DNA from: Lytechinus variegatus
Taxonomy: Eukaryota; Echinodermata; Echinoidea; Temnopleuroida; Toxopneustidae
Length of the DNA stretch: 64,000 nucleotides
Direction: 5' to 3'
Assembly: GCF_018143015.1 (NCBI RefSeq)
Contig: NC_054751.1
Location: 31,009,847-31,073,846 of the forward strand
This document shows, piece after piece, positions 25,211 through 61,512 of this stretch. Under the pieces are notes generated by a model. The model saw only the letters and a program-made list of their open reading frames with translations. It made no database searches and was not told the origin of the DNA. The translations under genes and the position numbers were made by a program. The first letter of the stretch is position 1, and every line of letters starts with the position of its first letter.

Positions 25211-28009
25211 ATGGTAAGAAGATAGTTATTTGTGCTCAATTGCCCATATTTAGATTCATATTTTTACGATTGATTTGTTGCAATTGTTATTTTGTATCGG
25301 GAAGCCTTAGTCAGTATTGTTGTTGGTGCGTAAAATGAGTGATTGACTAGCCGAGCCGAGGCCCAGGAGAGCTCACTTAGCCAGATGCTGGCCGGTCCCG
25401 CACATGCCGCGCCGGCACCTGGCTGGGGCCGCTAGACGGGACCCTTCCCGTATGCCGGCGGAGGCCTAACTTTAATTTTAGAATATATCTGTTGATGTTG
25501 GCAGGGTAAAAAAAGGAGAGATAAATTGTATTAAAATAAACACCCACCCAGTCCAAACTAGTGTATGTCAACAGAAATTCAGTATCGTGCCCTAGCTTGC
25601 CTAGGGCTAGGCTAGGGCATGTAGGGCCTGGCCCTGGCCTGGAGGAGTGGAGGCGTCTGGCATGTCTGGCATGTCTGGGCCAAGTCATATACTGTACTCT
25701 ACGTGTGGTCACTCCCGAGCTCCCCACTGACGCCTGGGACCCCAACCTATATTCCCCATGTACGGGTACAAAACCAGAAACTTTCGCCCCCGAGAATTCT
25801 AATTTTCCTCTAAAAGATCTAACCTTAAAACATGTACGTACATGTGGTCCAACTTCATTTCCAACATGTCTGCGATATTGATTTTATTTTTAAAGAAGAA
25901 TTCATTAAAAAAAACGAGAAATTTGTTATGAAAAGATGGGAAGAGCTTACGGCCGCATTTACGTCGCCATCTTGATTTCTTTGTCTTCCGCTTGGCGACA
26001 GCACGCAAATCATCGCGCAATTTGCGTGCTGTCGCCAAGCGGAAGACAAAGAAATCAATAAATAATACGTGCTAACTTTTTTTCTCTCATTCATCATTGC
26101 CACATTCTCAGCCATACTTTTTAGATCTTCTGCGGAAACTGAAACACAAGCATCAGAGGGAGCTTCGTGTTCTTCTCCTCGGCCTCGACAATGCCGGCAA
26201 GACAACCATTCTTAAAAATCTCTGCAAAGAGTCTTATGAGAACATATCACCAACGAAAGGGTTCAACATCAAAAGCGTTAAAAACAAAGACTGGAATCTA
26301 AATGTGTGGGATATAGGAGGTATGTAGCTTGATGTGATGACTTGCAGAGCAATATTCAAAGCTTAATGGGCGTGGTCAAAATGCTAAATGTTAAAGGCCA
26401 CATAGGTCATAATCTTGAAAATATCTTATTGTCATGAAAACTAAATGATCATTTATAGTTCCAATAGATGGGTGAGATTACACTGTCTTCATGATTGCAG
26501 TGATGATATGATTAGATTTTGGGAAATTTAAGATGTGAAGTGTGTTATATCTTCCAAATCTGGCAGAGGTTGGACCATGACTTTGTGTTGAGTGTTACTT
26601 TATCAGACATGTTTCACATTCATTTGTATCCAGAGTGGATTCAATTCAATTTCATGAATTTTGCAGAGAAAATGCCTCTGATTTGAGTTGCACACACATA
26701 TCATCCATATTTGAATTCAATTTCAAGTGCACTATCACTATAAATTTTCTTGAAAAAATCTCATTGCTTCTAATATCTAATACTTTTTGTATTCTGTATC
26801 TTTACATATAAAGTATGCCTGTATCGCCCTTTCTCAACTACTTAGCTTGAAAATATATGAGAGATACCGTAAGGGCACTAGTATTCAACCCGTTTGGAGA
26901 GTTTCCTCAAATATATATAAATATAGAATTTACCTGAATTTCAAACTCGTCTTATTTCCAAGAGCAAATGCTGGTTATTCTTTTTCCGATAGTTTTTTCT
27001 TCAACCAGTCAACTGTGTGCGCGGGTGATCGAATTATACGGCGATGGTTTTCGGCATTAGTATTCAACCTAGCGATGAAAGATGGCCCTGTCTCTCAATC
27101 TGCCCTTGTCCCATCCGAATATGGACTAGACCATTTGAGATGAGACCAAACAGGGAATTAATCAAAGTCAGAGACTTACATAGATCTAATTTAGCAATCT
27201 AAACCCTTTTGAGATTCGCTATCCTTACTAGGTTGAATACTAGTGCCATTCAGTGCAAAGGCCATTGCCGCATAATTCGATCCTCCGCGCATACAGTCGA
27301 CAAATTGATAAAGAAAATACCGACAACAGATTAGCCTGGAAATAACAAAATTATGAAATTAAGATAAATTCCCTATTTCTAAATATTTGGGAGAATATGC
27401 CAAAATCTTTGAATTATGTCGGGTTGAATACTAGTGCCCATACGGTACACTGAGCAGAAAAGTCGAAGCCAGTATCCTTACTGCTTTCTCATCTTCTCTT
27501 TCATGTAAACAGGGCAGAGGAAGATTAGACCGTACTGGAGGAATTACTTTGAAAACACTGACGTTTTGATATATGTGATAGACAGTGCAGACAGAACAAG
27601 ATTTGACGAAGCAGGCGAGGTGAGTTAGTCCTTTCAAATCTATCCTTCATAATGCAGTTTTCACAGCAGATATATTTATATGAATATAATACTAATAATA
27701 AACGATTTGCAGAGCACAGCTTTTATATGGATATATTCAGCGGCACTTGTTCAGAGCTCTTTTAACCTATGTCTACACAGCATATTTTCCTAACTAAAGA
27801 GATATGTTTTTAATTTTGATTTGAAGAGAGCCAAGGATGGAGAGCTTCTATAAAGTAAATAAAGTTACACAGATAACGTGTGGTTCATCAGTACTTTATT
27901 GATGAACTGATGAACCACACGTTAATTGTGTAACTTTATTCATTTTATTTCATGCTCTGCCTCATCACAGACATCGAGCACTCTTAATTACAAGGATAGC
28001 ATTCACCAA

Positions 28010-28043
<34 letters not shown>

Positions 28044-29402
28044 TATATATGTATATATAAATGAAAAAAGTAAATAAAACCAAACTACTACATATGTTTC
28101 CATCCCTCTTTAGGAATTCAGTGAACTACTAGAGGAAGAGAAGTTACAGGGAGTGCCTGTGTTGGTGTTTGCAAACAAGCAAGACCTGGTGGGAGCCGCT
28201 TCGGCTTCTGATCTCTCCGACTCTGACAATTTGAATTTACAAATACTTCGAAACAGATCGTGGCAAATTCAAGCCTGTTCTGCGCAGACAGGGGAAGGCC
28301 TAGAGGTAAAGTCGCTTCTAGATTTTCATCTTTAACTTTCATTGAGAAGAATAATATACTTTCTCTTTAGGAGGTGGAGACTAGTCTGCAGCAACAGACC
28401 ATTGGTTTTTGCAATGAGCATAGTGCGTAATGCCGAGTCTGAAGTAGTGAGACTAGATTCAGTATATTGTACTTTGGCTGCCTATTCGACACAGACAGAA
28501 TGTGTGGAGTGTCGTCTTCACTCTAGACATAGTATAATTGGTAAAGTGTCAAATTTGAGTCTGTGTTTGGAGACTGAGTAGACACCATACTCTTCTATGA
28601 AAGCAAGTGAAAAGGGTTCTTTTGGAATGGAAATGTCGAGCCTCTTTTGCAAACTTTGGAGTGTTAGAGTTTACAGTTTGAGAATGAATCACTTTTCTTC
28701 CTTGTGTATATTTTCCTTGATTGTAAACTAGTCTAATGTGGAAATAACATCTTGCTTAATAGACAGTGTAATAATTGTTGAATTCATTTCCTTTATTCGA
28801 ATTTTATAATATGAGATACGCGTATCTGAATTTTAGATTATATTATGCAATTGAAAGTATTTATCCCCTAGTGATCATATTACTGCAAGAAAAATCATGA
28901 AATAAGGTAAAACATTGATGGATATTCCCATTCAATGAATTTATTTGTGCATTACCTATCATTAGTTGCAATTATTACATGATGAATTCTTACAGAATCC
29001 AATAAAATGATCACCCAAGTGCCAGTTTGCATAAATAAATATGTGCCAAACTAAGGATTCTGGAAGAAATTGTTTCATTGCTAACTTAAACCCAAATAAG
29101 CTTGGGATTCAAGCAAATTTTGGGGTCCTTTTCTAAGCAATGATAGTACACGGTGTGCTATGTGCTATTCTGTGTTGGCAATCTACAGTAGGGTCGTTTT
29201 CAGTTTAGATTTCACGATTTGACAAAGTTCAATCTAGGTAACTTCACCAGATCTTAATCTACCATGATATAGCGACATTTAATCTTCATTTTACATACAT
29301 GTGAAAATCAGTGTTTTCTCCAACTACCTTCATTTATCTTTAATCTGTCCCAAACAGGCAGGGTTAACGTGGGTTATGAAGACGGTGAACAGCAAAAAGT
29401 AA
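25211..29402 (+). CDS. ARL3: ADP-ribosylation factor-like protein 3, copy 2 (spliced, 184 aa)
   Basis: Coding exons: 25211-25213 (ATG, followed by GTAAGA), 26112-26319, 27513-27619, 28114-28305 and 29358-29402 (TAA). Exons 2, 3 and 4 have exactly the same lengths (208, 107, 192) and phases as in copy 1. Motifs: [26 protein letters not shown] and CSA are intact, so it should bind and hydrolyse GTP. Hand alignment to copy 1 gives about 69% identity. Differences cluster in the N-terminal helix ([14 protein letters not shown]), the interswitch loop (KNKDWN against ASGGIN) and residues 98-118. The tail is [13 protein letters not shown]. Copy 2 is closer to human ARL3 in several places ([12 protein letters not shown] type residues, LLEEEKL). 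The ATG-only first exon is inferred from the donor and the shared promoter block. Confidence 0.9.
25972..26058. repeat. Perfect inverted repeat (39-bp arms, 9-base loop)
   Basis: Arms at 25972-26010 and 26020-26058 are exact reverse complements; the loop is catcgcgca. The arms contain cgcttggcgacagcacgc and its complement. It sits in intron 1 of ARL3 copy 2, 53 bp before the exon 2 acceptor, so the nascent RNA would form a long stem close to the branch-point region. Confidence 0.93.
26865..27447. mobile_element. TA-flanked MITE with ccgtaagggcactagt ends
   Basis: Left end taccgtaagggcactagtat, right end its inverted match with ctagtgcccatacggta. The TA dinucleotides at each edge fit a Tc1/mariner-type target duplication. 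The motif ctagtattcaacc occurs at both ends and again inside at about 27054 and, inverted, at about 27228, with gatcgaattatacggcg also in both orientations. This suggests an element inserted within a related one. In intron 2 of ARL3 copy 2. Confidence 0.78.
27858..27940. repeat. Hairpin with about 34-bp arms
   Basis: The left arm includes aataaagttacacagataac then gtgtggttcatcag; the right arm is the reverse complement with a few mismatches in the middle; the loop is about 15 bases. In intron 3 of ARL3 copy 2. Confidence 0.85.
28016..28055. repeat. (AT)n microsatellite
   Basis: Simple AT dinucleotide tract in intron 3 of ARL3 copy 2, just upstream of exon 4. Confidence 0.9.
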
Positions 29403-29763
29403 AGAGCATCCAGCATTTAGCCCTTTTATACCAGGTTGGTCGCACCATTCTAGGAGAGAGCGTTCTCCCTATTCCATGCTGCCATCCACAATGGTAAGAT
29501 ATTTGGTTAGCTCCTGTTAGAAGAACACATTCAGGATATTGTTGTGATCTTCAGGTTGGACTCGCTATCTTTCCTGTGCATATGAAGCAATTGCCAGCCA
29601 AAGACTTTAAAGATGACAATCACTGCCCTTGGCTTCGTAATGAATATCAGCTCCCATAATGCAACGGTGGATTACCTCGCCAGACTTATGATATCGGTCG
29701 TCATGCCATGTCTGCAGTCACTGCCATGGTTTGATATCTGTGGGACGTTGCAAGGAACTTTTG

Positions 29764-30490
29764 TTGGGTCAGATGCATAAAAAGTAGCAACTGCTGTTGC
29801 TAGGCTTTTGCTTGATTCCGTATGCAAAAAAATGAGCAAGCAAACGCTTTTGGTAATAAGTTCAAGCAATTACCTACTTTCTGTTAGCATTTGCTTGACT
29901 ATTAATCTATTTGCTTAAAAGCGTATGCATGCATAAAGCTAACTTGTTGCTTGTGCATTTAAGCACTTGCTTGGGTTTTCAAGCTCCGTCAGAGTAGCTT
30001 GAGCGTCTGCTTGATCAGGGCATTTGCATTTTATAGTCATATTTATGCACCTAGGAGAGAACCCCCAAAGGGTACAGTAGCCTTCATGTACATGTTTTCT
30101 TCCTTCTTAACGTGAATCTATTGCCAAAGTACATTAATTCATTAAATGGAAACAAGTTAGACGAATAGTTTGATATCACGTCCAAGGGAAAAAGTGTAAC
30201 ATGAGAGAAAAGGCATATTTTGAACTGCCATATCAGGTAACGACTTACATTCGAGTCCTGCCTTTGTTCTGCAAGTTGTTTACCCCAGCATGACGTTGCT
30301 ATTGTTCAATCCGCTAGCAATATTGCTTTCTGAAGGCAAGACAAGGGTCTAAGCCCAGGCAAAGGGTTATGCATACGAAATGAAGCAGTTGCTACATGTA
30401 AGTCTTGATCTTTTGCTTGGCTGGCAATTGCTCGTGCTTGCAGCAATTACTTGAATGTAATAATTGCTACTTCTTATGCATATGACCCAA
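29764..30490. mobile_element. 727-bp MITE with ttgggtcagatgcat ends
   Basis: Left end ttgggtcagatgcataaaaa then gtagcaa; the right end is the inverted match, ttgctacttcttatgcatat then gacccaa. The inside is rich in gcttgc/gcaagc motifs on both strands. It begins about 360 bp after the ARL3 copy 2 stop. Confidence 0.75.
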
Positions 30491-30689
30491 TGACTAGCAA
30501 TCAATCATGACTTTTGCAATCAATCACTAATTTGCAATTGATAGTATGCTTCTTGCAATAGAAAATATGAATTGATTACACTGTATTTAATTATTGATAA
30601 TGCAATGAAAATTTGCGATCAACCGTAAATAAGTTTGTTACTACTTGGTCTTTATCCAAGAGGCTTGAAATACATTTATGTGTAACCAG

Positions 30690-30871
30690 GTGGGTGTTAC
30701 ATGAGGCTGTTCGTGTAAGTTAAGAGCGATCTTAAGAACGACTGGTGATCCCTACGCGCTGAATAATCACCAATGAACATTTAATAGTGAATATCATTTC
30801 CCACAAGAAAGGATCACCAGTCGTTCTTAAAGTCACTCTTAAATGACGAATAGCTTCATGTAACGGCCCCC
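30690..30871. mobile_element. Short MITE with ttacatgaagct ends
   Basis: Inverted arms: gtgttacatgaggctgttcg with agagcgatcttaagaacgac and ctggtgatcc, matched on the right by ggatcaccagtcgttcttaa and tagcttcatgtaacggcccc. About 65-bp arms with mismatches. Confidence 0.8.
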
Positions 30872-31833
30872 AGGTCCATTTCTGGCTGTTTCTTGGGCAG
30901 AAATTTCATGAGGTATGTCTGTGGCTCTTGTGATGGGGGGGAGGGGGTGTAGTTGAGCCTATGATATTTTTTCATGTAGGCACTTGAAAGAAAACAGACA
31001 TTTCTTGGAATTAAAAAAGAAGATAATGAAAAGAGAGAGGTCTGGGACTATAGATCTATGATACCTTGATACCCCTTTTACAGACCTGCCAACTAGTATG
31101 TTTTTTGGCGTATGTAGTACGTTTTTGCAACCAAAACACGGCAGTACATTTTTTCTTTAAAGAATATGTTTTTTTTTAACAAAATCATAATTTTCTTGAG
31201 AAAATCATCTCTATATGTCTCTAGATAAAAAAAATATATCAAAAACTTACACAAATATGGTTATTAGATCAATGTAATTTCAAGTAACTTGTTTTTTTTT
31301 CCAATCATTTTGTTAAAACCAGGGTGAGATATGTATGTTTCAATGGGTTTTTTTTCATCTGCAAGAGCAGTGACAATTTTAGCTTACATACAGCTTGTGT
31401 GCCGCGATGGGTGAGTGCGCCAGGCATTTTATTATGAAATGCACTTTTGGGGGAAAAATAGTTTTTTTAATCACAAAGTACAATTTTTCATTCCCAGAGG
31501 TTGGCAGGTCTACTTGTAGGACCTGGTGAAATGAAAATAAAAATGATGTCACTAGAAAGAAAGCCATCTTGCCTGCACCCTCCTTTATCAAATATTCTGG
31601 TGCCACTCCTGAAAGGCATTGGTATCTTTCATTCATTTGAAACTATCTACCATCTATCTTTATGCAAAAATGAAAAAACAACGAATCTATTTTCTGAGAA
31701 TGATGAAAAATATCCACATTGATAAAACCATTCTTGTCTTGCTGCGTCAGGTTCTCTTACAGAGCATATTGAGTTAAAACATGCTATATAATTTTGGAAA
31801 TGGTAAAAAGAAAGAAGGGTCTTGATTAGATCA

Positions 31834-31990
31834 GGGCGCCGTAACACAAAGGTTAGGGATTAATCGCAAAATGAAATGACTAATCAAGATCATCGTTGCA
31901 TGCGCATTTTGCTAAGTAGACTGACTATGAACCAATCAGAATTGTCCTTTGACATTAGCGATTAATCGCTAACCTTTGTGTTACGGGAAC
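31834..31990. mobile_element. Short MITE with gtaacacaaaggttag ends
   Basis: Left gccgtaacacaaaggttagg then gattaatcgc; right gcgattaatcgctaaccttt then gtgttacggg. About 35-bp arms. Confidence 0.8.
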
Positions 31991-31992
31991 CA

Positions 31993-32157
31993 GGGGACTG
32001 TTTCATGAAAGTTGTCAGCACTAACAATTTGTCTTTCTCCGACAGTTACCATAGTAACAGTCAGAGGCCAGTGCTTCTCAGCCAATCAAAAGCAAGGATT
32101 TCATTAAAATAGCACTGACAATTTAGTCAGTGCTGACATCTTTCATGAAACACCAAC
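31993..32157. mobile_element. Short MITE with gtttcatgaaag ends
   Basis: Left gactgtttcatgaaagttgt then cagcact; right agtgctgacatctttcatga then aacacc. It directly abuts the previous element. The internal ccatagtaac and ccaatca motifs are shared with 41890-42047. Confidence 0.75.
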
Positions 32158-34599
32158 CAGGTGAGACGAGTGGCACAAAGAGCTGGAGTGGTTGGAAAAG
32201 ATCAGCCTGGTTTAGACTGTCTCTTTGAACAGAGTGTGTTGTCAAAAACTACCAAAATCATGAAAGATCAAAGCCATCCTCTCAATACCCAATATTCATT
32301 CAATCGATCTGGAATCCATTAAAATGTCCCACGAACTAATAGGTCGCACTTCCGCGGTTCCACCAATTAATCTTTCGTTCCAAACTCTATTCACTTGCAT
32401 AATCAACTTCCCACAATAGTTACAACTACTGTACTTAACTGCACACCATCTGAATTCTCATGATAATAATAAAACAATGTAATAATAACAATAGTATGAA
32501 TGAAATAATAATGATAATAATAGCTGTACTGAATATTATATTGACATAAATATACCTATTTCTTGTTTCATAGATATGTATAACATAATGATAACGTACA
32601 GGATAAATAAGAATCCTTTTTCAACATGAATGCCATGATTTCTGGTGAAGAATCATACTTATATTTGTCTGTTTACATGTGTTTTTCACTATCTCTTTCT
32701 ATGTTCTCACATCCTCTATGTGTGTTTCATATATGTTTGTAATGCTGGTGCAAAGCACATTTCCATGAACTTGGACTACAATAAATATGAACATTTTTGT
32801 GAATTTTACCATATTTTCAGGAAATCTAAATCAAAATAGTACATTTTACATTCAGTTTGTTGACAAAGACTGTTGTTCCATATTAAATGACAAAGTTTTG
32901 ATCAGTGCCAAATATTTGTTCATATATAATTTGGGGCAATTATTAATGTGGTTATTTAGTCTATTTGAGAGGATGAAGTGGTCAAACTAGTGAATATCTT
33001 TGAAGCTATTTTATTGATATTGTAAACATACTGTTAATACTTCATTAATATTTTTATGATTTATATTACTTATTAGCCATTTCAACATTTGATTTTGGGG
33101 ATCATTTTACCTGCCTCTTTTTTATCTAAATTGAGGGAATAGTTAAAAAATATGCCATCTTTCTTAGAATCGATGTACAGTTTATGCATAATTATTTTGA
33201 TAAGCATTTGAATATTTTTTTGTTGTTTTTTTGGTGATATTTATGTACACCGAACTTGCATGAAACGTTATCACCTTGAGTTACATATCCGTCTCATTGA
33301 ATCATAATTGTAGATAACATAATGGATATTGATCTGATATTTTAGTATGTAAAGAATAAAGAGGTATGCAACTATGACAGATGGCAAGCACTGCAGATAC
33401 ACATACATGTACGGTAGCTCTAATTATAGTATACCGGTATTCAAAACAAATTTTTCATAGAACTATGAGATAGCAGATGTGGCAACCAAGATTTTATGTT
33501 TTACTTGTACTTTCATATAAATACCAAAAGAGTGCTTACTTTGAAAGTGGTGTGAAAAAAATGTCCCTATTTATATGTGCAAAAGAGAGAGGTGACTATA
33601 TCACTTGTATTTTTTAGTACTTAATTTTATCATTTCATTCATTTCAATTTTTCATAAGGTATGAATGATCAGGCGACTCATCATATTTTAGCAACGTATT
33701 ATTGTAGCCAAAATTGGAATGATTTTTAAGAAATAAACAAATACTTCATTTCATACAATGCAAAACATCAGGTGTTTTGAAATGTCGATTGGATAAATGG
33801 TTAATACCTCTGTGAAAAAGTACGTGTACATGGCTATAGCCATGAGTGTCGATGCACAATGATTTTGGGGGAAAATGCTATTTGTTCAAATGTTTATTTA
33901 AAGATTCCTTTTAGTTGCATAAAAAATTATGAATTCTGAATATTGGTCACTTTGCAATCAGTGATAAATAGGTACATAGTAGTTGGTGTAATTTTCCCAA
34001 GGAAGTGGAAGATGTGCAGTGCATACATCTAGTCATGGGCAGATTCAGTACAGCACCCTTTTAAAGTAGGGGGGGGATGATGTGAAACAATATACCCCCC
34101 CCCACTGCTTGAATCTTTTATTCTTTTACAGTGTATCTATTGCATCTTGTGTATGTACATGTGTACGTATATGTGTTGAATTTATTTTTAATCAAAGATG
34201 GATGTATTGTTAGAGAACTTCTGATTTATTTATGAAGTGATGAAGATGGACAATGTAAAGCACCATGGCCCGTATTCTGAACCGAGGTTTGATCTGAAAT
34301 CTGGTCTTAAGTTGTGGTGTAACCATGGATATAGCCAATTTGGGACACAAATCTCTACAGTACAAATTTCGATTTATGACCTCATCTGTCACACAAGTCA
34401 TCCAACTGTCTGGGAACAATTAGTAGAATTACATGTCGTTTTCTTGGCCATTGTACCATAAAGGCACTAGTGAACATGACAAATTTGCAATATTATCAAC
34501 AAAATTATGGTTTTTCCCTCTTCCCGTAATTTTAGTACAGTGTTAGACCTTTGTCTATAAACTTAGAGTGAACTTCAGAAGGCAGATCTATAAGATACT

Positions 34600-34848
34600 A
34601 CACTCTAAACAGAGATAAAATTCAGTTACCCAATATTGGGTAGAAAGGGAACTTATGCTGGATAAAAAGGGAATATGCATGACTTGTTTGCTTGGTAATT
34701 TTTCCCTCAATATTGGGCAAAATGCATGTTTGAAGGTACATTTGAATGCAACATTGAATAAAATTTACAAAATATTTGGTATCTTTTTACCCAACAAACA
34801 TGCATGTTGCCATTTTACCCAATGTAAACCTTTTTTTTAAGAGTGTAA
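34600..34848. mobile_element. Element with acactcta ends and cccaatattgggta repeats
   Basis: The left end is actacactctaaac and the right end is the inverted match, ttaagagtgtaac. Inside are tacccaatattgggta-type palindromes and ttacccaa motifs. The internal theme resembles 51931-52675. Confidence 0.6.
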
Positions 34849-36558
34849 CAGTTTAGAAAATTATGTATTCTTAAAGTTACAAAATTTCACAATGTTTCTG
34901 AATCAGTGAATGTATTCGTAAGAGTGAGTTTGATGTATATTTCTTTTAATATGTATTTATATTGAAATTCAAGTAATGATTCTTCATATTTTATTTCTTC
35001 ATTTCACCAAGAAATAAAAGAGCTTTGTAGCCAATATACATTAGTTGGAAGGTTTTCTATTGTGCAAGAATTTATGTGTCATACAGCGCTAGTTCATTTA
35101 CAATTATGGCTTATGCTTCTTGGTCTCGGCTTTTGTCCGGGGGGGGGGGGGGGGGGGGTGAGGTTTTCGCAGAGATACAGAGTTCAGCAATTATTTTCAA
35201 TGCTTTGTGTATCACACATGCACTGATATACAAACGGGGTGGGGGGACTTTGAAAAGTTATGGATCCCCACAATTATTCACGACCAAGAAATAAAAATGG
35301 AGAAAAAAAGGTAAGGAAAAGGGCGAAATATACTATTTTCTGAATATCATGAACTGTTGGTCATTCTCTTCACTCATAGCTTTTTAAATTTTTTTAGGAA
35401 CTTTGCCCCGTACGTCATGTCATGTCTGGTCCCCCTCAAAGATTTTGGCTCATTGTGCAGCACAAATGTAAACTTGTGTGAACTACATTCATATAAATAA
35501 TTCTGCCAAAACAGCCAGTAGCACTCGAAAGTTTTATTTTCATTTATTGTTTTCTGCATTTTTTTCATGAACGACATTAACAAAGAAAATACAGTTGACA
35601 GAGTATGTAACAAAAATTATTTATATTCAAGAGATATTTTTGGGAAAAAAGTGTTTAAAAGGTTACAAGGGTTCTGGTTCCTAGCGCTCTTCGATCATTG
35701 CCCAGGAACTCGATCTAATTTTGTGATTTTGAAACAACAATTCTAATTGGCTCCTGGATAGTGTTCGGAACAAATTGCTGATGTCACTATGATCTCGATT
35801 GGTCATTGTCATTGAGCAATATACCTTATGCATGAATGATGTCCTCACGCAGCCATCTTAGAGGCTGAAGCCATTGCCTTGCATGCCTTTGTGATCTGCA
35901 GCTGGCGCATCTCTGACAACTCGCTTTACATAAATTCCTATATCCTCTGAGGGAGGGCGCTATGATATTATGACGGCATGGACGTGCATGTAAATCATGT
36001 CATTTCTTTGTCAGCTAGACATCTTGGGTATGCTTCATTAAGTATCTTACCAGTTATTTTTACCAACAAACTTGCTCTGAACCAATCAGATGCAAGAATT
36101 TCAGTGGCTTATTACAAATAGTGAAAAAAAAATCTTTTTACAAAATGCTGTCAGTTCCTTGAAGCAGGGGGAGAGGGAGGGGGGATACATACCCTGATAA
36201 ATGGCTCTTATAAATGTGATGTTACAGTGTTCTATTTCATTGCCATATTCAAGACTGTTTATAATATTGTTTAGACAGGGGCGGATCCAGAATTTTCAAA
36301 AGTGGGGCAAATTTTTCGGGGGAAAATTTTGACATGCAGAAAAGAAAAGGTTTTCAACCACAAATGAAGGAAATTTCGTACCCGTAAAAATTGACAAGCA
36401 AAAAAAAACAAACTTTTTAAATATGTACCCGGTAGGATGGGAAAGATATTTCATGTTTTATTTTGCCAGCGCCATAATGAGGCTGCGATAAATGCAAGGA
36501 ATGCTCCCCAGGGAATGGAAATTGTGCACTTTTGTGCAGGATTGAAATGAATCCAATG

Positions 36559-36645
36559 ACCAGGTAATAATATGCTGTAAAGCGCTTTGAGCCGTTCTGG
36601 GAAAAGCGCTTTATAAAAATTGGCTATTATTATTGTTATAATGGC
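36559..36645 (+). mobile_element. 3' tail fragment of a LINE/SINE
   Basis: taaagcgctttgag, then aaaagcgctttataaaa and a ttattattattg tail. This is the familiar 3' end shared by CR1/L2-like LINEs and their SINEs. Only the tail is present. Confidence 0.6.
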
Positions 36646-37129
36646 ATTTTTACATTACAAATTTTTATTTTACTTCTCAAAAGATTTAAATTCACATCTT
36701 TTAGATTTATATTCAAATCAACAAGATTTAAATCTAAATCTAATATTCGGCTGGTCACTATTCACAGCCAATCTGGATTTATTTTCAATCCTTGGAATTT
36801 AGAGTGTACTTTGCAAAAAAAATGTATATTAATAAACCAAATTCTGCTTATTTCAACTTCAGCCACTGCAAGTAAATCTCATTGAAAACCCCATTTGGTT
36901 TGGCTTCCAAACTCCAGCCATTCATGACATATAATATGTTCATAATTTTTTTTGTCCACATTTTTAAACCGGTTTCGGTTTGTTCGGACAACAAACCGAA
37001 ATGGAAAGTCGTTTGAGGAAAGGTGAAAATCGGCAACGTAATAAATTTTAACAATAATATATGGTAAAAAGAGAAGTTTCATTTTTTTTAATATACACAA
37101 CAATTATGATTGATGCATTTTTTTTGTCT

Positions 37130-37275
37130 CGCCTGCGTATGCATGGTGAAACTAGCCGGCGTCGTCAACATTGAAATCTTAACCGAGGTTAAAGTTTTTT
37201 CAGTGTCATCAGATCTTTCTGAGAAAGTATGGACCTAAGACATGAAACTTTAACATAATTATTCAGGTCATGTAT
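37130..37275 (+). mobile_element. Fragment of the 55584-56704 element family
   Basis: Starts ttttgtctcgcctgcgtatg then gccggcgtcgtcaacat, followed by aaatcttaaccgaggttaa and agtatggacctaagacatga. This is the same order as at the start of the tandem-repeat element at 55584, but with one unit only. It lies about 110 bp downstream of the cystine-knot gene stop (minus strand). Confidence 0.65.
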
Positions 37276-37383
37276 AAATATATACATTATACACCTTTTT
37301 TATGATGGTGTAGCGTTTCGCATTCATTTGAACGCCTCCATATAATATGTATCTTTTGAAGGGAAAATCGGTAAATGTACAAA

Positions 37384-37608
37384 CTACGGTCCAAAACTTG
37401 CACACGACTCCACTTGGACTTCTTGAACATCGATGTGCGCGGATGTTACATCGTCGTCGAGACGGATAGCGACGAGGTAGACGGCCCTCTGAATGGTCTG
37501 GCATGAGATGTCGACCAGTTCTGAGCTCGAAACTCTGGACAATTGACCGTGAGGCGATAATGAGTTAACGCACTCTTGACGAAGAACCCATTGATTGAAT
37601 CCCGGGAA
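37384..37608 (-). CDS. Cystine-knot growth factor, terminal coding exon (74 codons and stop)
   Basis: On the minus strand this exon follows a long CT-rich tract ending in CACAG and reads FPGFNQWVLRQECVN...DISCQTIQRAVYLVAIRL...VQVESCASFGP then TAG, phase 0. It joins in frame to the exon at 40767-41221. The pattern of alternating beta-strand-like segments with a QEC, an ISC and a terminal ESCAS matches the second half of Spatzle and neurotrophin domains (for NGF: ETKC, SYC, TACVC). The cysteines equivalent to NGF C68 and C110 are absent, here replaced by a Ser-rich loop and by Ser after CA. Family members are secreted dimeric ligands (Trk/p75 in deuterostomes, Toll in insects). The receptor here is unknown. 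Coding call firm; family call moderate. Confidence 0.75.
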   Translation of the reverse strand, partial: FPGFNQWVLRQECVNSLSPHGQLSRVSSSELVDISCQTIQRAVYLVAIRLDDDVTSAHIDVQEVQVESCASFGP

Positions 37609-37790
37609 CTGTGGAGGAGGAAGAGGAGGAGGAGAAGAAGGGAGGAGGAGAAGAAGAAGGGAGGAGGAGAAGAAGTGGAAGGAGTGAGGAGGAGGAGGAG
37701 AAGAAAAAGAGAGGAGGAGAAGAAGTGGAAGGAGTTAGGAGGAGGAGGAGGACAAGAAGAAGAAGAATGAAAGAAGAAACGTGTGTTAAA
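37609..37790 (+). repeat. Purine-rich GGA/GAA tract, polypyrimidine tract of the cystine-knot intron
   Basis: About 180 bp of almost pure purine on the + strand (ggaggaggaagaagaag types), with a longer internal period in which agaagtggaaggagt recurs. On the minus strand it is CT-rich and ends exactly at the CAG acceptor of the terminal exon, serving as an extremely long polypyrimidine tract. Confidence 0.88.
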
Positions 37791-38189
37791 ATATCAACTA
37801 TCCCATACACAGTAAAAACACTGTTTGAAAATTTTACTTTAAGAAATTCCCAGTTGGTTAACAATGTGTTTCAAATCTTAAAGAACAACGTTTGGTTGTC
37901 ACTTGCCCCGTGACTTTTTATAATGCTCATTATCGCCACATTGTAACATTTATCCCGCCGTATCTATTGTGAGGGACAGGGCAGCGATTTTAAGGGGGCG
38001 CAAAATAAACGCAAGAGGGAAATCAAGAAATTCAATATCTGGGCTCGAGCGTTTCATGAAGGGAATCGTCGGACGTTTTATCCGAAAAGTAATGGTCAAT
38101 ATAGTAAATGGTAGTGATTTTTTTTTTACCTAATTCCTAAGAAAGCATGAATGCTTGTGAGCGAGCAACCAGAGAACCGATGACTTAAG

Positions 38190-38335
38190 GACCTCTCCGA
38201 GGGACCTGGAAATGAGGACTTAAATTCCTTATTTTTTACCAACTAGCGCACCAATTTAGAATCGAACCCGGGTCACCGGAATACGAAACCCCGCTCTACC
38301 GACTGAGATGAGCTATCGCGCATCCTCAAGTCCCG
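38190..38335 (-). mobile_element. tRNA-derived repeat fragment
   Basis: On the minus strand: gatagctcatctcagtcggt then agagc (A-box like) and, about 35 bp on, gggttcgattc (B-box like). The acceptor ends do not pair into a tRNA, so this is a SINE head or tRNA relic. In the intron of the cystine-knot gene. Confidence 0.5.
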
Positions 38336-38471
38336 TTTTATCCGACAGTTGCAGTTGCTATAGTAAAGGCTTCTCAGCTCATCAAAATCAAGGAAGTTGT
38401 CATAATCTGGAAACTTTTCGGACGGTTTATATGCTCCCCAGAAAACTCCCATCCCCCCTCCTCCCAGAAGG

Positions 38472-38906
38472 TTAAAGGCCAAGTCCATCCCAGATAATGT
38501 TGATTTGAATAAATAGAGAAAAATCAAACCAGCACAACGCTGAAAATTTCATCAAAATCGGGGGTAAAATAAGAAAGTTATAACATTTTAAAGTTTTGCT
38601 TATTTCTCACACAACAGTGATATGCACAACTCAAATGAGACAGAAAAATAGCATATTCCCTATTTCATGTAATAAAATTCAAAAGGAATAGTGAGTGCAT
38701 GGATGATGTCATCAGTCTCCTCAATTATTGCATACCAACCAGGATGTGCATATAACTGTTTTGTGAAATTAAACAAAATTTTAAAATGTCATAACTTTTT
38801 TTCTTTTACATCCAATTTTGATGAAATTTTCAGTGTTATGCTTGTTAGATTTTTCTCTTTTTATTCAAATCTTTTTTTTTTTTTTTGGGGTGGGCTTGTC
38901 CTTTAA
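38472..38906. mobile_element. TTAA-flanked MITE, family C, second copy
   Basis: TTAA at 38472-38475 and 38903-38906. Left aggccaagtccatccca and right tggggtgggcttgtcct are inverted matches. The internal sequence (tcatcaaaatcggg, catttt..gttttgc, ggatgatgtcatca) is shared with 15671-16274. In the cystine-knot gene intron. Confidence 0.82.
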
Positions 38907-39177
38907 TGCATCAAAACTTCGGGTCAAAACTATACATGTATAGAGTCTCAAAAGCATTAAAAACATTTTTGCTTTGTGCTTTCTCGCATTATTCCTCTCC
39001 GAACCCAATGATATCGCACATCTATTCCGAATAATAAAGCCCAGGGGCCCGTTTCTCAACACCGTCATAAGTCTAACTTCTGGAATGAATCGGAGATAGT
39101 TAGCTACTTATCCGCAAACCGTTTCACGAAGCCCTCCGTTTGCCAAGATCGGGGACAACAATCTGACTAAATAATAA

Positions 39178-39667
39178 TAATATGCAATTTTTTATATAGC
39201 GCTTATAATACAAATGTTTCTAAGCGCTGCATGCTATTTCCCCGGCTTTAGCACGGCTACCCTGATCGGGCGCATCAAGCATTCAAGGAATTCCTTCCGA
39301 GTACCGGGTACCCATTTACTACACCTGGGGGGTGTTTCACAAAGATTTAAGCATGACTTAAGTCGCACTTAAATGCCGACGCGTACATGATATGCAACGC
39401 GCGATCTTATTGATAGATACGCATTAGTGCGCGTCCTCATGACACGATCTGACCAATACGGTCAAGCCTTTCATACCGTACGCAACTCGGTATTTAAGTG
39501 CGACTCTAAGTCATACTTAAATCTTTGTGAAACACCCCCCTGGGTCGAGAGTGGCAAATGTAGATAAACGCCTTGCCAAAGGACGCTACTGCTGTGATGG
39601 GATTTGAACCCCGGACCTTATGTGGTTCACAGTCCGGAGACTTATCCACTGAGCCACAGTACCTCTA
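39178..39667 (-). mobile_element. tRNA-derived SINE, full-length type, split by a MITE
   Basis: On the minus strand: a tRNA-like head with tgtggctcagtggataag (A box) and ggggttcaaatccc (B box). Then a body with tcctttggcaaggcgtttat, aatgggtacccggtactcgg and aaagccgggg, and a 3' tail agcgctatataaaa then tattattatt. Fragments of the same family are at 47738-47960 and 51585-51780. The MITE at 39330-39537 is inserted in the body. Confidence 0.82.
39330..39537. mobile_element. MITE family B, nested in the SINE
   Basis: Ends gggtgtttcacaaagattta and its inverted match; arms continue agtatgacttaga/agtcgcacttaaatgcc in both directions. Flanked by cctggg on both sides, with the SINE sequence continuing normally beyond. 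This gives a clean insertion with about a 6-bp duplication. Confidence 0.85.
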
Positions 39668-40766
39668 CAATATATTTTATGACACCTCCGAACCTGTCAT
39701 AATTTCTTTCTTAATGACCTAGTAGCATCACGTGGGTTAGACTATGGTATTATGCAAAAGAGTCTCGAAATTTGAAAATGATAATCTAACGTAATCAATC
39801 ATATCGCAAAACAAGTGGGATAGATCATTCAATGATAATTGTGATGCAAAGAAACTATATTTAAAAACAAGTCACAAAACCATTCATTTTGAAATAGTAA
39901 AATGAGTGAATCAATACAGATTATACCACGTTAGGCCATATCATAACTGGAGTATCTGTTGTTTTCAGACCCTATTAACATTCGGATATATTCTATCTCT
40001 ATGCATATAATTTGTCAAATTGTATTTTTTGGTATTTTAAACAATTTATGTTAAAATATATTTTGATGATGTTTGGAATCATAAAAAACCGTATAATTAT
40101 CATCGTTCTACAATACCCATTATGGTTTACTTCCGTAAACTGTTAAAATGCCCATCTCAACGTCCACATTAGTGTGATTTTTTTAGTCATGAAATGAATT
40201 ATTCATAATTTTATTTTCTCAGCAATTGAATGCTCCAGTCTGCATGGTTTAAATAATCATGTATGACGCATAATTTACCTTTGCTATTATTTTGAAAACA
40301 TATATTTCCGAATTCTTCACATTTTTAATTTTATCATTTTATAATTTTCATAATTATTATTGTGACATAAGGCTGCGTCTCGTCTGATCTCTTTACCGAT
40401 TCTAGTTTAGCCTTTCGTGAAACGTGGTTTAGTATAACTCCGTGGTTGGTGGATAGAGATATGACTAACTTGTCCAGGTGTTGAGAAAGGGGCCCCAGAT
40501 AGTATGATAACGGGATACAATCATTTTGGATCTGGCACACAGAAAGCTTACCAAAATCTGACCAGTGAAAAAAAGGTGGATGTGCTTTCCAAAAAGAGGT
40601 CAAAACTTGCCTCGCCAAAAGATAAAAGAAAAATGATAATGCTTCAAATTTAGGGGATAGCCGGCTCTCCAAAAGAAGTACGGTCAAACTTTGCCTAGCT
40701 CACCAAAATAAAAAGATTAACATGAATAAACCGACGAGTAAGCAGCAAAAAAAGATGATCCCTTAC

Positions 40767-41221
40767 CTGGACAATCTGTAGCAGCTCATCATCAGTGTCG
40801 AATGCAGTTATGAGGGTCGTCATGATGTTGTTGACAGGGCAAATGGAAACTCCTGGAGCTACTGCGGATCTTCGTTTACGGCGGGGGACAAATTCGATTG
40901 GGACCGGGTAAGGTGTCGTCTCGTTGCCGATTTGGTTGTTGTATAGACAACTTTATCGTCCCAAAAAAGAGTACCATACTCATAGACCTGTCGGTTCCTC
41001 CCAAATCCTCCGTACACCTCCAAGATTTGGGCCTGCTGCTCCGCGGTGAACTCTTTTATGATCGGCTGTTGGTTTTGATAGGTCCGAATCTTGTTGGCCC
41101 GGAGTTCATCGATGATGCCGCGTTCCTTGGCGTCGATAATCTGCCTCGTCTGGATCTCCTCTAAGGGGATGTGACGGCATGGTTCAGGAGTAGAAAGAGG
41201 GGTGCATGGAGTTTGTATCAC
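40767..41221 (-). CDS. Cystine-knot growth factor, penultimate exon (prodomain, furin site, first knot segment)
   Basis: Minus strand; donor CAG|GTAAGG at 40767/40766, probable acceptor CAG before 41221. The first part reads VIQTPCTPLSTPEPCRHIPL, then a charged helical-looking region (ERGIIDELRANKIRTYQNQQ) to about 40950. The second part, in a frame one base off, reads NNQIGNETTPYPVPIEFVPR then RKRRSAVAPGVSICPVNNIM and ends DELLQIVQ at the donor. RRKRR is a clear furin site. Cleavage would release a mature chain of 108 residues with the next exon. SICPV followed 37 residues later by QEC equals the first cysteine spacing I recall for Drosophila Spatzle. The frame change between about 40950 and 40860 means a one-base indel in this allele or an assembly error. 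The signal-peptide exon was not found. Confidence 0.65.
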
Positions 41222-42134: not shown

Positions 42135-42639
42135 TTAAAGGGGAAGTTCACCCTGAAGAAAACTTTCTTGTAAAAATAGCAGAAAAAATAGTAAAAAATA
42201 TTGGTGAAGGTTTGAGGAAAATCCGTTAAAGAGTAAGAAAGTTATTAGAGTTCAAAGTTTTGGATTTGTGACGTCATAAACGAGCAGCTGTCCCATGTGT
42301 TATGTAATATAAAATGCATAAATTTCAAATTTTGTATGGTTCCTGATGACTTAATTTTGTTTTCTTTTCATGATCGGGTGTGAAACGATTTGTATATTGA
42401 TATACAAAAGTTACAGTGAAAACCATTTTCATTTTTCTGAGAAAATGACATTTCATTGATTTTTTACCATTCGCTATGTAGGAATGCTGCTCGCATATGA
42501 CGTCACAAATCAAATAATTGAAATTCTAATAACTTTTTAATTATTTGATGAATTTTTTTCAAACCTTCGGCAATATTTTTCATTAATTTTTCTGCTATTT
42601 TTACAATTAACTTTTTGTCAGGCTGAACTTCCCCTTTAA
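42135..42639. mobile_element. TTAA-flanked MITE, family D
   Basis: TTAA at 42135-42138 and 42636-42639. Ends aggggaagttcaccctga and the inverted tcaggctgaacttcccct; further inverted blocks include atagcagaaaaa, ttgtgacgtcat and aataacttt. Termini of the AGGNNAAGT type resemble family C, suggesting the same transposase class. Confidence 0.85.
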
Positions 42640-46735: not shown

Positions 46736-47037
46736 GACTGGGCGTTGTGGCGTGCGCCTGTAATCCAGCTGCTTTGGAAGTCGGGGTTGGTGGATCGCTT
46801 GAGAGCGGGAGTCCTGTATGTCGTCGGTCTATGGCGATCGGGCGTCCGCGCTAAGCTCGGCATCGATATGGTTACTTGGTCGGAGGATCGGGCAACCAGG
46901 TCGTCTAAGGAGGGACGTACTGGCCCAGGGCGGAAACGCAGCAGGCAAAAGTCCCCGTGTGGAGCAGTAGTGGGATAGCGCCTGTGAATAGTCGGCGGCT
47001 TACAGCCCGTTCAACACAGTGAGACCCAATCCTTTTT
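46736..47037 (+). ncRNA. Signal recognition particle RNA (7SL)
   Basis: About 302 nt, the usual length of animal 7SL RNA. Near-exact conserved blocks in the right order: 5' domain tggcgtgcgcctgtaatcca and ggatcgcttgag; the helix 6 region gatcgggcgtccgcgctaag ctcggcatcgatatggt; helix 8 with the SRP54-binding core ggcccagggcggaaacgcag caggcaaaagt; then the returning strand agtagtgggatagcgcctgt gaatag and a gtgagaccc 3' end. It stops at a T5 run (47033-47037), a Pol III terminator. The RNA is the scaffold of SRP, which targets secretory ribosomes to the ER. The intact core argues against a pseudogene. Confidence 0.95.
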
Positions 47038-59205: not shown

Positions 59206-59694
59206 ATAATGTAATGGCAATTTTTACAATGGCGATGAAGATGTTGGTAATTCTGTCTGAGGGTTTCCACTAAACATCATTTAAGTAGATTTTTCGACTA
59301 ACAAACATGGGAAAGTGCAATCAATGTTGCAAGTACAAATTACCATAAGCTTGAAAATGGAAAAGCGAGACAAGTTCCTATTGCTATTGCCATACTAATT
59401 TGTATAAGCACAATCCGAAATTACAAGCGCACCCCAGCCATGGACTTTCCTGACTAGATTTAGGAGGGTAATTCTCTATAAGGCTTTGCAAATTAACCTA
59501 AAGGAAAAAGAAGTCTAAAGAGCCGGGTTGAACATATTTTCCAATATATATTTTTTTCTGGTGGCAGGGGAGGGGTTAATCTTGATGAGCCTATTATTAG
59601 GACGGCCATTAAAGCAACGTTTTTACTTAAAAAAGTTCTTAGGGGGCAGTGCATTTCCGCATTCCTTCTCTTGACGCCCGTCCGCTCTGCTTCT

Positions 59695-59905
59695 CTCCCC
59701 TGCTTCCCCTCCCCTGCTTCCCCTCCCCTGCTTCCCCTCCCCTGCTTCCCCTCCCCTCTTCCCCTCCCCTGCTTCCCCTCCCCTGCTTCCCCTCCCCTGC
59801 TTCCCCTCCCCTCTTCCCATCCCCTGCTTCCTCTCCCCTCTTCCCCTCCCCTGCTTCCCCTCCCCTGCTTCCCCTTCCCTCTTCCCCTTCCCTCGATCCC
59901 CCCCT
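59695..59905 (+). repeat. Pyrimidine minisatellite, 14-bp unit
   Basis: About fifteen copies of tgcttcccctcccc, with variants that lack tg or carry ctt. One strand is almost pure pyrimidine, followed by more CT-rich DNA to about 60055. It creates Pro/Ser-rich and Gly/Arg-rich spurious frames. Confidence 0.93.
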
Positions 59906-60055
59906 CTCCCCCCTTCATTCCCTATCTATCTCCCTCTTTCTCACTGTGCGTGCATGTGTATGCTCTCCCTCCGCATCTCTCTCCACCTCCCCCCCTCTCT
60001 CTCTCCCTCTCTCACAACCCCCCTCCTCCCTCTCTGCCCCCTTTCTCTCTCTCAT

Positions 60056-61512
60056 TCCAAAACACACCAAAAATATATGCATTCACCCTCCCATGCAAAC
60101 ACTATACCGATCACAAGGGCATACATGTGTCGACATCATCTAGTGGTAAATAAACCTTCAGAAAAAAATACAAAGAATCAATATAAACGAACGAATAATG
60201 ATGATAGGAGGACGTGGGTACACAAAGCCAGTATAACAAGGTATAATTAGAAGAAAGAAGTAGTGGGCGATCAAGCGATTGACGGATGTGTGTGTGATCG
60301 TATCGACTGTCTGGAATAGATTGCAGCCTTCCATTCAATAGCAAGCGATCAAACTTAATGAATTGACTTCATATTCATGCTTGCATCATTTTGGAAAAGG
60401 ACGGAAACGAGTTGATGCCAGCTGAGCAGAAGTATAAAGGATATGTTTTAAGGTAATTACGATCATAATCAATTATTCTTTAAAAAGGGATTGAAAAAAT
60501 GCATCTTTATGAATATGACGAAGTGAAATTTAGTTTTAAAGAGAAATTTTGTTGTGAATAATAATATCGTATTTCACGTATTGTGGAATAACCACGTGGA
60601 TCTCTAATGGATCACATTATCCCTCGAAAATTAATGAAAATTTTAAATTTAACTAATTTACTCATATTCACTTCAGAAAAAGTCATGTTTTATAGAGGGG
60701 TTGTGCAATTTTGTTTGAAGTGATTATAGAAGCTAAAATATTCCATAAAAACCCATATCATTGATTCGAAAAAATACGTTTGTATATTATTTAGTATTTT
60801 TGTTTGGCAAGATATTGCTGGATTATGTGTAAACATAATGATGCGTGAAAGTTTACTGAGGAAACATGCTTTTACGTGACATTTTACTGGGCAGATACAC
60901 ATATTACCTATTACTTAATAATGGACCAACTTTGTATTTGTATTGTTGCCATCAGAGAGACATAAAACTAATTTTATGATATGAATTAAATGAAGACATA
61001 AATCAAAGGTTGAATTTGATATGAACTATTGTAACTAACGAATTCCATTGCCATCGATGTTTGCATTTGTATGGAATTTGATTAAATTCAAAGGGCATTA
61101 AACTTATTGTTGCTTTTAATAATTATATTTTATGAGCGAAGGTACAGTAGGTTTCAAAAGCACTTTCAAAATAAAGGTATGATGTATTTTTTTCGGAGAC
61201 CAGTCTGGTGTGTGTGTGTGTGTGTGTTTTTAATAGAATTTCAATTCCTTTCAGAGCTTACTTGTATGTGCTTATTTCATTTGTATTATAACCATAAACG
61301 TTGCGAAAAATGCGTCTGTCAACGATCGAAAAGCATTTAAGGTTGCAGTTAAATATTATTTTCATCTCTCTTTACATCAACCAAAAACATGTTTAGAAGG
61401 CATATTCACTAAGATTGTAAATAAATTATCACCTGTACATGTATTCATCGATCTCGGAAACGTAGCCATTTATATTTTTTTTACTGAAACATTTCGACGG
61501 TAGTGAAAACTT
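60056..61512. other. Intergenic, nothing recognised
   Basis: AT-rich; a (TG)n tract at 61208-61227. No gene, no repeats of note. Confidence 0.4.

Follow-up and report, generated by a model that had tools for sequence, protein, structure and literature searches.

A putative Spätzle-like gene with four cysteines and a broken precursor frame in the sea urchin Lytechinus variegatus

Could a cystine-knot growth factor shed part of its knot and still act as a signal? This question is raised by two minus-strand exons in a 64,000-nucleotide stretch of the Lytechinus variegatus genome (RefSeq contig NC_054751.1, positions 31,009,847 to 31,073,846), referred to below as the window, which encode a putative cleavage site followed by a short Spätzle/neurotrophin-like chain with only four cysteines. 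A previous interpretation, made from the letters alone (the sequence-only reading), regarded the product as a secreted factor that has lost exactly one disulfide of the knot through coordinated loss of both bonded residues. The DNA facts behind that interpretation hold, but it did not report that the propeptide and the mature chain lie in different frames. On the sequence evidence, the explanation that we favour, to which we give a little short of an even chance, is that most of a Spätzle/NT2-like gene is present here, in a copy that may be decaying, non-functional, mis-assembled or mis-modelled.

The mature chain and its family

Then, is there a gene at all? The two exons and their phase-0 junction are confirmed. 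The donor of exon 1 at 40767 (CAG|GTAAGG) is equalled or exceeded in score by 0.06% of the 3189 GT sites on the same strand (2/3189), and the acceptor of exon 2, which begins at 37608 and is preceded by TCCTCCTCCACAG, by 0.4% of 3266 AG sites (13/3266); both are among the best of the strand. It should be noted that the scoring used a generic matrix, that the counts 2 and 13 are derived from the fractions, and that the pyrimidine tract of the acceptor is part of a GGA/TCC microsatellite (37613-37763), which is a caveat on its score. Past RRKRR, which we take to be a furin-type cleavage motif, translation gives, as the sequence-only reading had it, a chain of 108 residues with cysteines only at 10, 47, 70 and 103, four in place of the six knot cysteines of Spätzle. 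The chain starts with SAVAPGVSIC, its exon 1 part ends with LLQIVQ, and exon 2 opens with FPGFNQWVLRQEC and ends with VESCASFGP, followed by the stop TAG at 37386-37384; ATTAAA at 37092 is a candidate poly(A) signal.

To which family could such a chain belong? The sole Pfam family matched at E<=10 is Spaetzle (PF16077), with 15.7 bits (E=0.023) against a gathering cutoff of 27 bits, over residues 8-95 of the chain and positions 2-85 of the 96 in the profile; a version with 28 extra N-terminal residues scores 14.7 bits. Among ten shuffles with the cysteines fixed, none matches Spaetzle and three match unrelated families (E=0.022, 0.091 and 0.11), which limits the value of such E-values. Human NGF, as a control, scores 23.0 bits with the Spaetzle model and 185.9 with that of NGF, and the mature chain matches neither the NGF nor the IL17 profile at E<=10 in Pfam. 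Of the two profiles by which the sequence-only reading proposed to check the kinship, Spaetzle is matched below its cutoff and NGF is not matched.

Comparisons with 2000 free and 2000 cysteine-fixed shuffles point in the same direction. A profile of two Spätzle chains gives 5.4 bits (equalled by 6 and 5 shuffles, free and cysteine-fixed, respectively), a profile of five relatives 4.6 bits (15 and 7), and a profile of three neurotrophins -0.3 bits (451 and 467). The global score against Aedes Spz1C, with which all four cysteines align, is equalled by 8 and 6 shuffles, whereas those against NGF (713 and 711), BDNF (769 and 843) and NT-3 (1479 and 1519) are no better than shuffles, and the cysteine mapping based on NGF is therefore weak. 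The score against Drosophila Spz is equalled by 19 and 20 shuffles, but that alignment is off register and sets C70-C103 on Spz C10-C47; it is set aside because the Pfam match and the Aedes Spz1C alignment are co-linear, and it shows how weak the family signal is. The spacing of 37 between the first two cysteines is indeed that of Drosophila Spz (C10, C47), as the sequence-only reading stated, and of Aedes Spz1C (C5, C42), compared with 43 in NGF (C15, C58). Frame 0 does not contain the neurotrophin motif; inspected by eye, the next frame agrees with it solely at C, W and the last C. Taken together, the chain is probably, judging by its sequence, a distant Spätzle-side member of the Spätzle/neurotrophin superfamily; the proposed kinship is supported on its Spätzle side.

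Other searches added little. There is no match at E<=10 in a PDB sequence search (phmmer), and alignment of the single chain with small alignments by hhalign (probability <1%) was useless. The structure predicted for exon 2 alone has a mean predicted local distance difference test (pLDDT) of 54.3 and a predicted template modelling score of 0.43, with strands at 30-39, 42-50 and 57-64; this low-confidence model has no match among PDB folds at E<=0.001, and neither supports nor refutes a knot. Further exon copies in the window were sought with tblastn, which beyond the exons themselves gave only matches at E 1.1 or worse. For relatives, none of 31 pattern matches in genome contigs and none of 11 matches of exon 2 in viral contigs was confirmed. 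The exon 1 piece had 34 matches in viral contigs, one of them confirmed (L001, 22 residues, 55%); it shares the string FVPRRKRR followed by different sequence, and was taken as chance.

The precursor frame and the missing cysteines

Could the precursor be read through? The propeptide is traced back to 41221 in one frame (frame A), while RRKRR and the mature chain lie in another (frame B). Frame A belongs to an open frame of 171 codons on the minus strand (41374-40862), which passes the cleavage site and meets a stop just after 40862. Frame B cannot extend upstream beyond a TAA at 40955-40953, and the sequenced precursor has its break between this point and 40884 (40955 to 40884). As for a small intron that would reconcile the two frames, six GT-AG pairs of at least 30 nt without a stop were found, the best with a total of -6.5 bits, and this solution was rejected. 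In a small codon-usage test, which was trained on only 323 codons and is weak, frame A is the best of three frames over 40956..41221, and in the zone of the frame change the mature frame scores -10.9 (its own stop counted) against -6.1 and -0.1 for the other two. The 171-residue product of frame A has no Pfam match, and a 90-residue part of it a weak one to DUF7842 (E=0.06, 14.5 bits, cutoff 27). The acceptor at 41221 is weak as well, with a score of about 0 that is equalled by 14% of AG sites.

Upstream, a scan limited to phase-0 first exons that combine a fair donor with a signal-like start found none, compared with one in an equal length of the opposite strand. A continuous precursor with a signal peptide, as is typical of Spätzle, was not obtained, and the factor is secreted only putatively. 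The two ARL3-like genes of the window can be read through all six exons (323 codons as bounded) without a frame change, so sequence error is not general there; a single error at the pro-exon may nevertheless have occurred.

Which knot cysteines, then, are missing? In NGF, the knot is formed by C15-C80, C58-C108 and C68-C110. The loss of the residue matching C68 agrees with MAFFT, which places S58 opposite it. However, the claim that C108 survives and that just one bond is lost is not supported by the last strand: C103 falls on the first cysteine of the Spätzle CCxC ending in MAFFT, with the Spätzle profile and in the Aedes alignments (3/3 gap settings), and on the extra cysteine of Spätzle in ungapped last-strand scores with all five relatives. 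In this register VESC103 lies opposite the IPSC/LPSC of Drosophila Spz and Aedes Spz1C, C103 stands one residue ahead of the fifth knot cysteine, and Ala104 and Phe106 occupy the knot positions. The NGF mapping of the sequence-only reading is obtained in one of 15 global alignments, that to BDNF at gap -8/-1, where S58 falls opposite C68 and S105 opposite BDNF C111; 11 of the 15 are off register and uninformative.

According to an excerpt of PMC2772990, an extra cysteine adjoins the fifth knot cysteine in Spz1, Spz2 and sea urchin NT2, and the part of PMC9427763 that is available describes the central inter-chain bond at Spz1C Cys-94 as conserved in Drosophila Spz. Provided that the numbering follows chain 7b1b, Cys-94 would be the first cysteine of CCKC. 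If C103 corresponds to this extra inter-chain cysteine, C47 is without its usual partner; under the favoured register only C10-C70 would be a standard knot bond, and more than one bond may be gone. Two Cys-to-Ser point changes could still account for the loss, but they require the NGF register.

Could a trace of the third knot cysteine (C3) be found? In exon 2, the next frame at 37541-37504 reads CPEFRAQNWSTS, directly before C70, with a Cys that fits both NGF spacings to within two bases, and a Trp at +8 from it, as NGF W76. In 200,000 codon-order shuffles, such a Cys occurs in 4.3%, Cys with Trp in 0.065%, and Cys with Trp or Tyr in 0.15%. With the C3 segment read in the next frame, the score on Pfam Spaetzle climbs from 15.7 bits to 23.1, compared with 19.9, 19.5, 21.3 and 20.3 bits for four scrambles of the segment with the Cys fixed, 18.7 for S58C alone and 20.2 for S58C with S105C. 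The next frame after C103 alone gives 19.9 bits, and both next-frame pieces give 26.9 (cutoff 27), to which little weight should be attached, since the piece at the C-terminus depends on one additional base that we chose. The next-frame Cys and Trp are suggestive only as a trace of a lost C3. With the frame break in the same precursor and this suggestive remnant, the paired loss need not be read as coordinated evolution.

Weighing the explanations

In the gene plan, a propeptide and a furin-type site would precede a cystine-knot domain that is interrupted by a phase-0 intron, and the intact ancestor would presumably have been a secreted dimeric ligand for receptors of Toll, Trk or p75 type. 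As sequenced, no single frame leads from the propeptide into the mature chain. The missing knot cysteines would then come from the same erosion, that is, from recent insertions, deletions and substitutions in a copy that is decaying or no longer functions, or alternatively from local assembly errors, and not from a selected open knot. The frame break in the pro-exon and the suggestive next-frame C3 make erosion or error the simplest reading. However, several observations weigh against it. The mature frame is open through all 108 codons, across an intron with good splice signals, and by codon score frame 0 comes first of three in all four comparable pieces of the mature chain up to V100 (a fifth overran the stop); in the C3 segment it is barely ahead, -6.8 vs -8.1, and usage does not separate the frames there. 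Merely placing a Cys at the C3 segment gains 3.0-5.6 bits. When all paired shifts were allowed in codon-shuffled controls as a look-elsewhere test, 27/200 improved as much as the real chain with the Spätzle profile and 6/200 with the five-relative profile, and 50/200 and 8/200, respectively, reached an equal score; the best real reading in that search is not exactly the chosen one. The four-cysteine plan would still be real if the pro-exon carried just one lesion or base-call error, and the gene may yet encode a functional four-cysteine ligand.

It is unlikely, though well worth bearing in mind, that the locus encodes a working Spätzle-like ligand with a dismantled knot, in which C10-C70 would be kept, C47 and the old inter-chain C103 would pair or lock the dimer, and the pro-exon break would be put down to a sequence error or to an allele. 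Rather improbable is a functional ligand with an open knot, in which both C10-C70 and C47-C103 are made, S58 and S105 stand in place of the lost C68-C110 bond, and the break is a sequencing or assembly error. The open mature frame and good splice sites agree with it, and so do the BDNF alignment at gap -8/-1, the MAFFT placement of S58 on NGF C68, and chordate and vertebrate IL-17, in which two Ser replace both Cys of the third bond according to the available part of PMC4517768. However, MAFFT, the Aedes alignments and 5/5 ungapped comparisons of the strand disfavour its register for C103. Since the chain resembles NGF, BDNF and NT-3 no better than shuffles do, any mapping on NGF is weak, and the frame break also counts against this reading. 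We regard as decidedly improbable the specific case of a functional, rewired Spätzle-like ligand in which C103 is the ancestral inter-chain cysteine, both ring bonds are lost, C10-C70 is kept, and C47 and C103 pair or link the dimer. The frame break counts against it too, and we know of no family member with one of the three knot bonds. In its favour are the alignment of VESC103 with IPSC/LPSC, the inter-chain bond conserved between Spz1C and Drosophila Spz (PMC9427763, in part), and the extra cysteine of sea urchin NT2 (PMC2772990, excerpt).

That the open frames have no Spätzle kinship and resemble one by chance is very improbable. The Pfam score below cutoff, the shuffled control that matched an unrelated family at E=0.022, the lack of PDB sequence matches at E<=10 and of fold matches at E<=0.001 for an exon 2 model of pLDDT 54, and the off-register alignment to Drosophila Spz would all fit chance; on the other hand, RRKRR, an intron, four cysteines and the 37-residue spacing coincide with the one family matched, none of the ten cysteine-fixed shuffles matches Spaetzle, and NGF itself reaches only 23.0 bits on that model. 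Slimmest of all is the chance that the gene model is incomplete, the transcript leaving exon 2 ahead of the in-frame TAG for a further 3' exon that supplies the last knot cysteines. The precursors of sea urchin NT2 and Daphnia NT span several exons (PMC2772990, excerpt), and exon 2 has TGT|GCAAGT at its end, which by eye is similar to a rare GC donor. However, a minus-strand scan of 28400-37383, for phase 0 and these patterns, found one AG|CxC candidate of 12 residues and no [ILVFM]x[STA][CA]CxC motif, and the missing third cysteine and the frame change are left unexplained. Much depends on the outcome: should the four-cysteine plan prove real and conserved, it would show how a cystine-knot growth factor can lose knot bonds yet fold and signal, in parallel to IL-17; should the copy be decaying, it is a broken Spätzle/NT2-like gene of an ordinary kind, and a warning that a cysteine loss taken from one unchecked gene model is not to be termed "coordinated evolution" as long as its precursor is out of frame.

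Features of the window and known systems

The features are listed in Table 1. The pieces of the two ARL3-like genes are 56-83% identical to human ARL3, and one exon is assigned to the Arf family by Pfam. Together with the match to metazoan signal recognition particle RNA, these genes point to an animal genome.

Table 1. Coordinates of the Spätzle-like gene and of other features in the window
Feature	Positions	Strand	Remarks
Propeptide part of exon 1, frame A (VIQTPCTPLST...TLFWD)	40956..41221	-	5' end uncertain; acceptor CCCTCAG|GTG weak
Zone of required change from frame A to frame B	40884..40955	-	without plausible intron
RRKRR, furin-type motif, putative cleavage site	40869..40883	-	from sequence
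Mature residues 1-34, with C10 (codon 40841-40839)	40767..40868	-	ends ...LLQIVQ at donor CAG|GTAAGG
Phase-0 intron	37609..40766	-	3158 bases, several repeats; 3' end a TCC-rich microsatellite
Inverted repeat within the intron	39324-39543		37-nt outer arms, 95% complementary, containing GTGTTTCACAAAG; perhaps a small DNA transposon (a guess)
Exon 2, mature residues 35-108 and TAG	37384..37608	-	
Exon 2 codons	C47 37572-37570, S58 37539-37537, C70 37503-37501, C103 37404-37402, S105 37398-37396	-	
Next-frame stretch reading CPEFRAQNWSTS	37504..37541	-	Cys and Trp at neurotrophin C3/W76 spacing; suggestive only
ARL3-like small GTPase gene	12059-15181	+	three exons found
ARL3-like small GTPase gene	26118-28305	+	three exons found
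Inverted repeat	42135-42639		159-nt arms, 81% complementary, 187 nt apart; perhaps a small non-autonomous transposon (a guess)
Metazoan signal recognition particle RNA	46737-47035	+	full-length match, 276 bits, Rfam RF00017
Open frame of 293 codons	53978-54856	+	no Pfam match at E<=1
Low-complexity repeats	59496-60247		open in several frames; Pro/Ser/Leu-rich on +, Gly-rich on - strand

How does this chain compare with known systems? The literature search, mostly judged by title and with subscription journals thinly covered, returned no title on a Spätzle or neurotrophin that lacks a bond of the knot among the matches listed. In the portion of PMC4812194 available, the cystine-knot growth factor subfamilies all have six cysteines, and the portion of PMC6018497 on the sea cucumber genome contains a pathway mention only. 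With the vertebrate neurotrophins (NGF, BDNF and NT-3) the chain shares the general plan, a C2-C4 distance of 23 against 22 in NGF, and a next frame that gives Cys and Trp at NGF spacing; unlike them, it has an intron in the mature domain and no NGF Pfam match, and its similarity to them is not above that of shuffles. In IL-17, the lost bond is the threading one, different from the bond proposed to be lost here. IL-17 is nevertheless a precedent for a cystine-knot cytokine minus one bond by change of two Cys to two Ser (PMC4517768, as far as the excerpt goes), while the mature chain here has no IL17 Pfam match.

Closest is Spätzle C-106 (Drosophila Spz, Aedes Spz1C; PF16077), which has the same C1-C2 spacing of 37, a Gln seven residues before C2, and IPSC/LPSC near the end where VxSC is found here; in contrast, the present chain is below the Pfam cutoff, is without an in-frame C3, has one cysteine only of CCxC, and carries a frame break in its precursor. 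For the ambulacrarian neurotrophins, compared by description only, the excerpt of PMC2772990 reports no loss of knot cysteines. The same excerpt groups sea urchin NT2 and acorn worm NTa and NTb nearer to the protostome neurotrophins, and describes sea urchin NT2 as split over several exons. Therefore, it would hardly be surprising for a deuterostome to have a Spätzle-like gene whose mature domain is interrupted by an intron.

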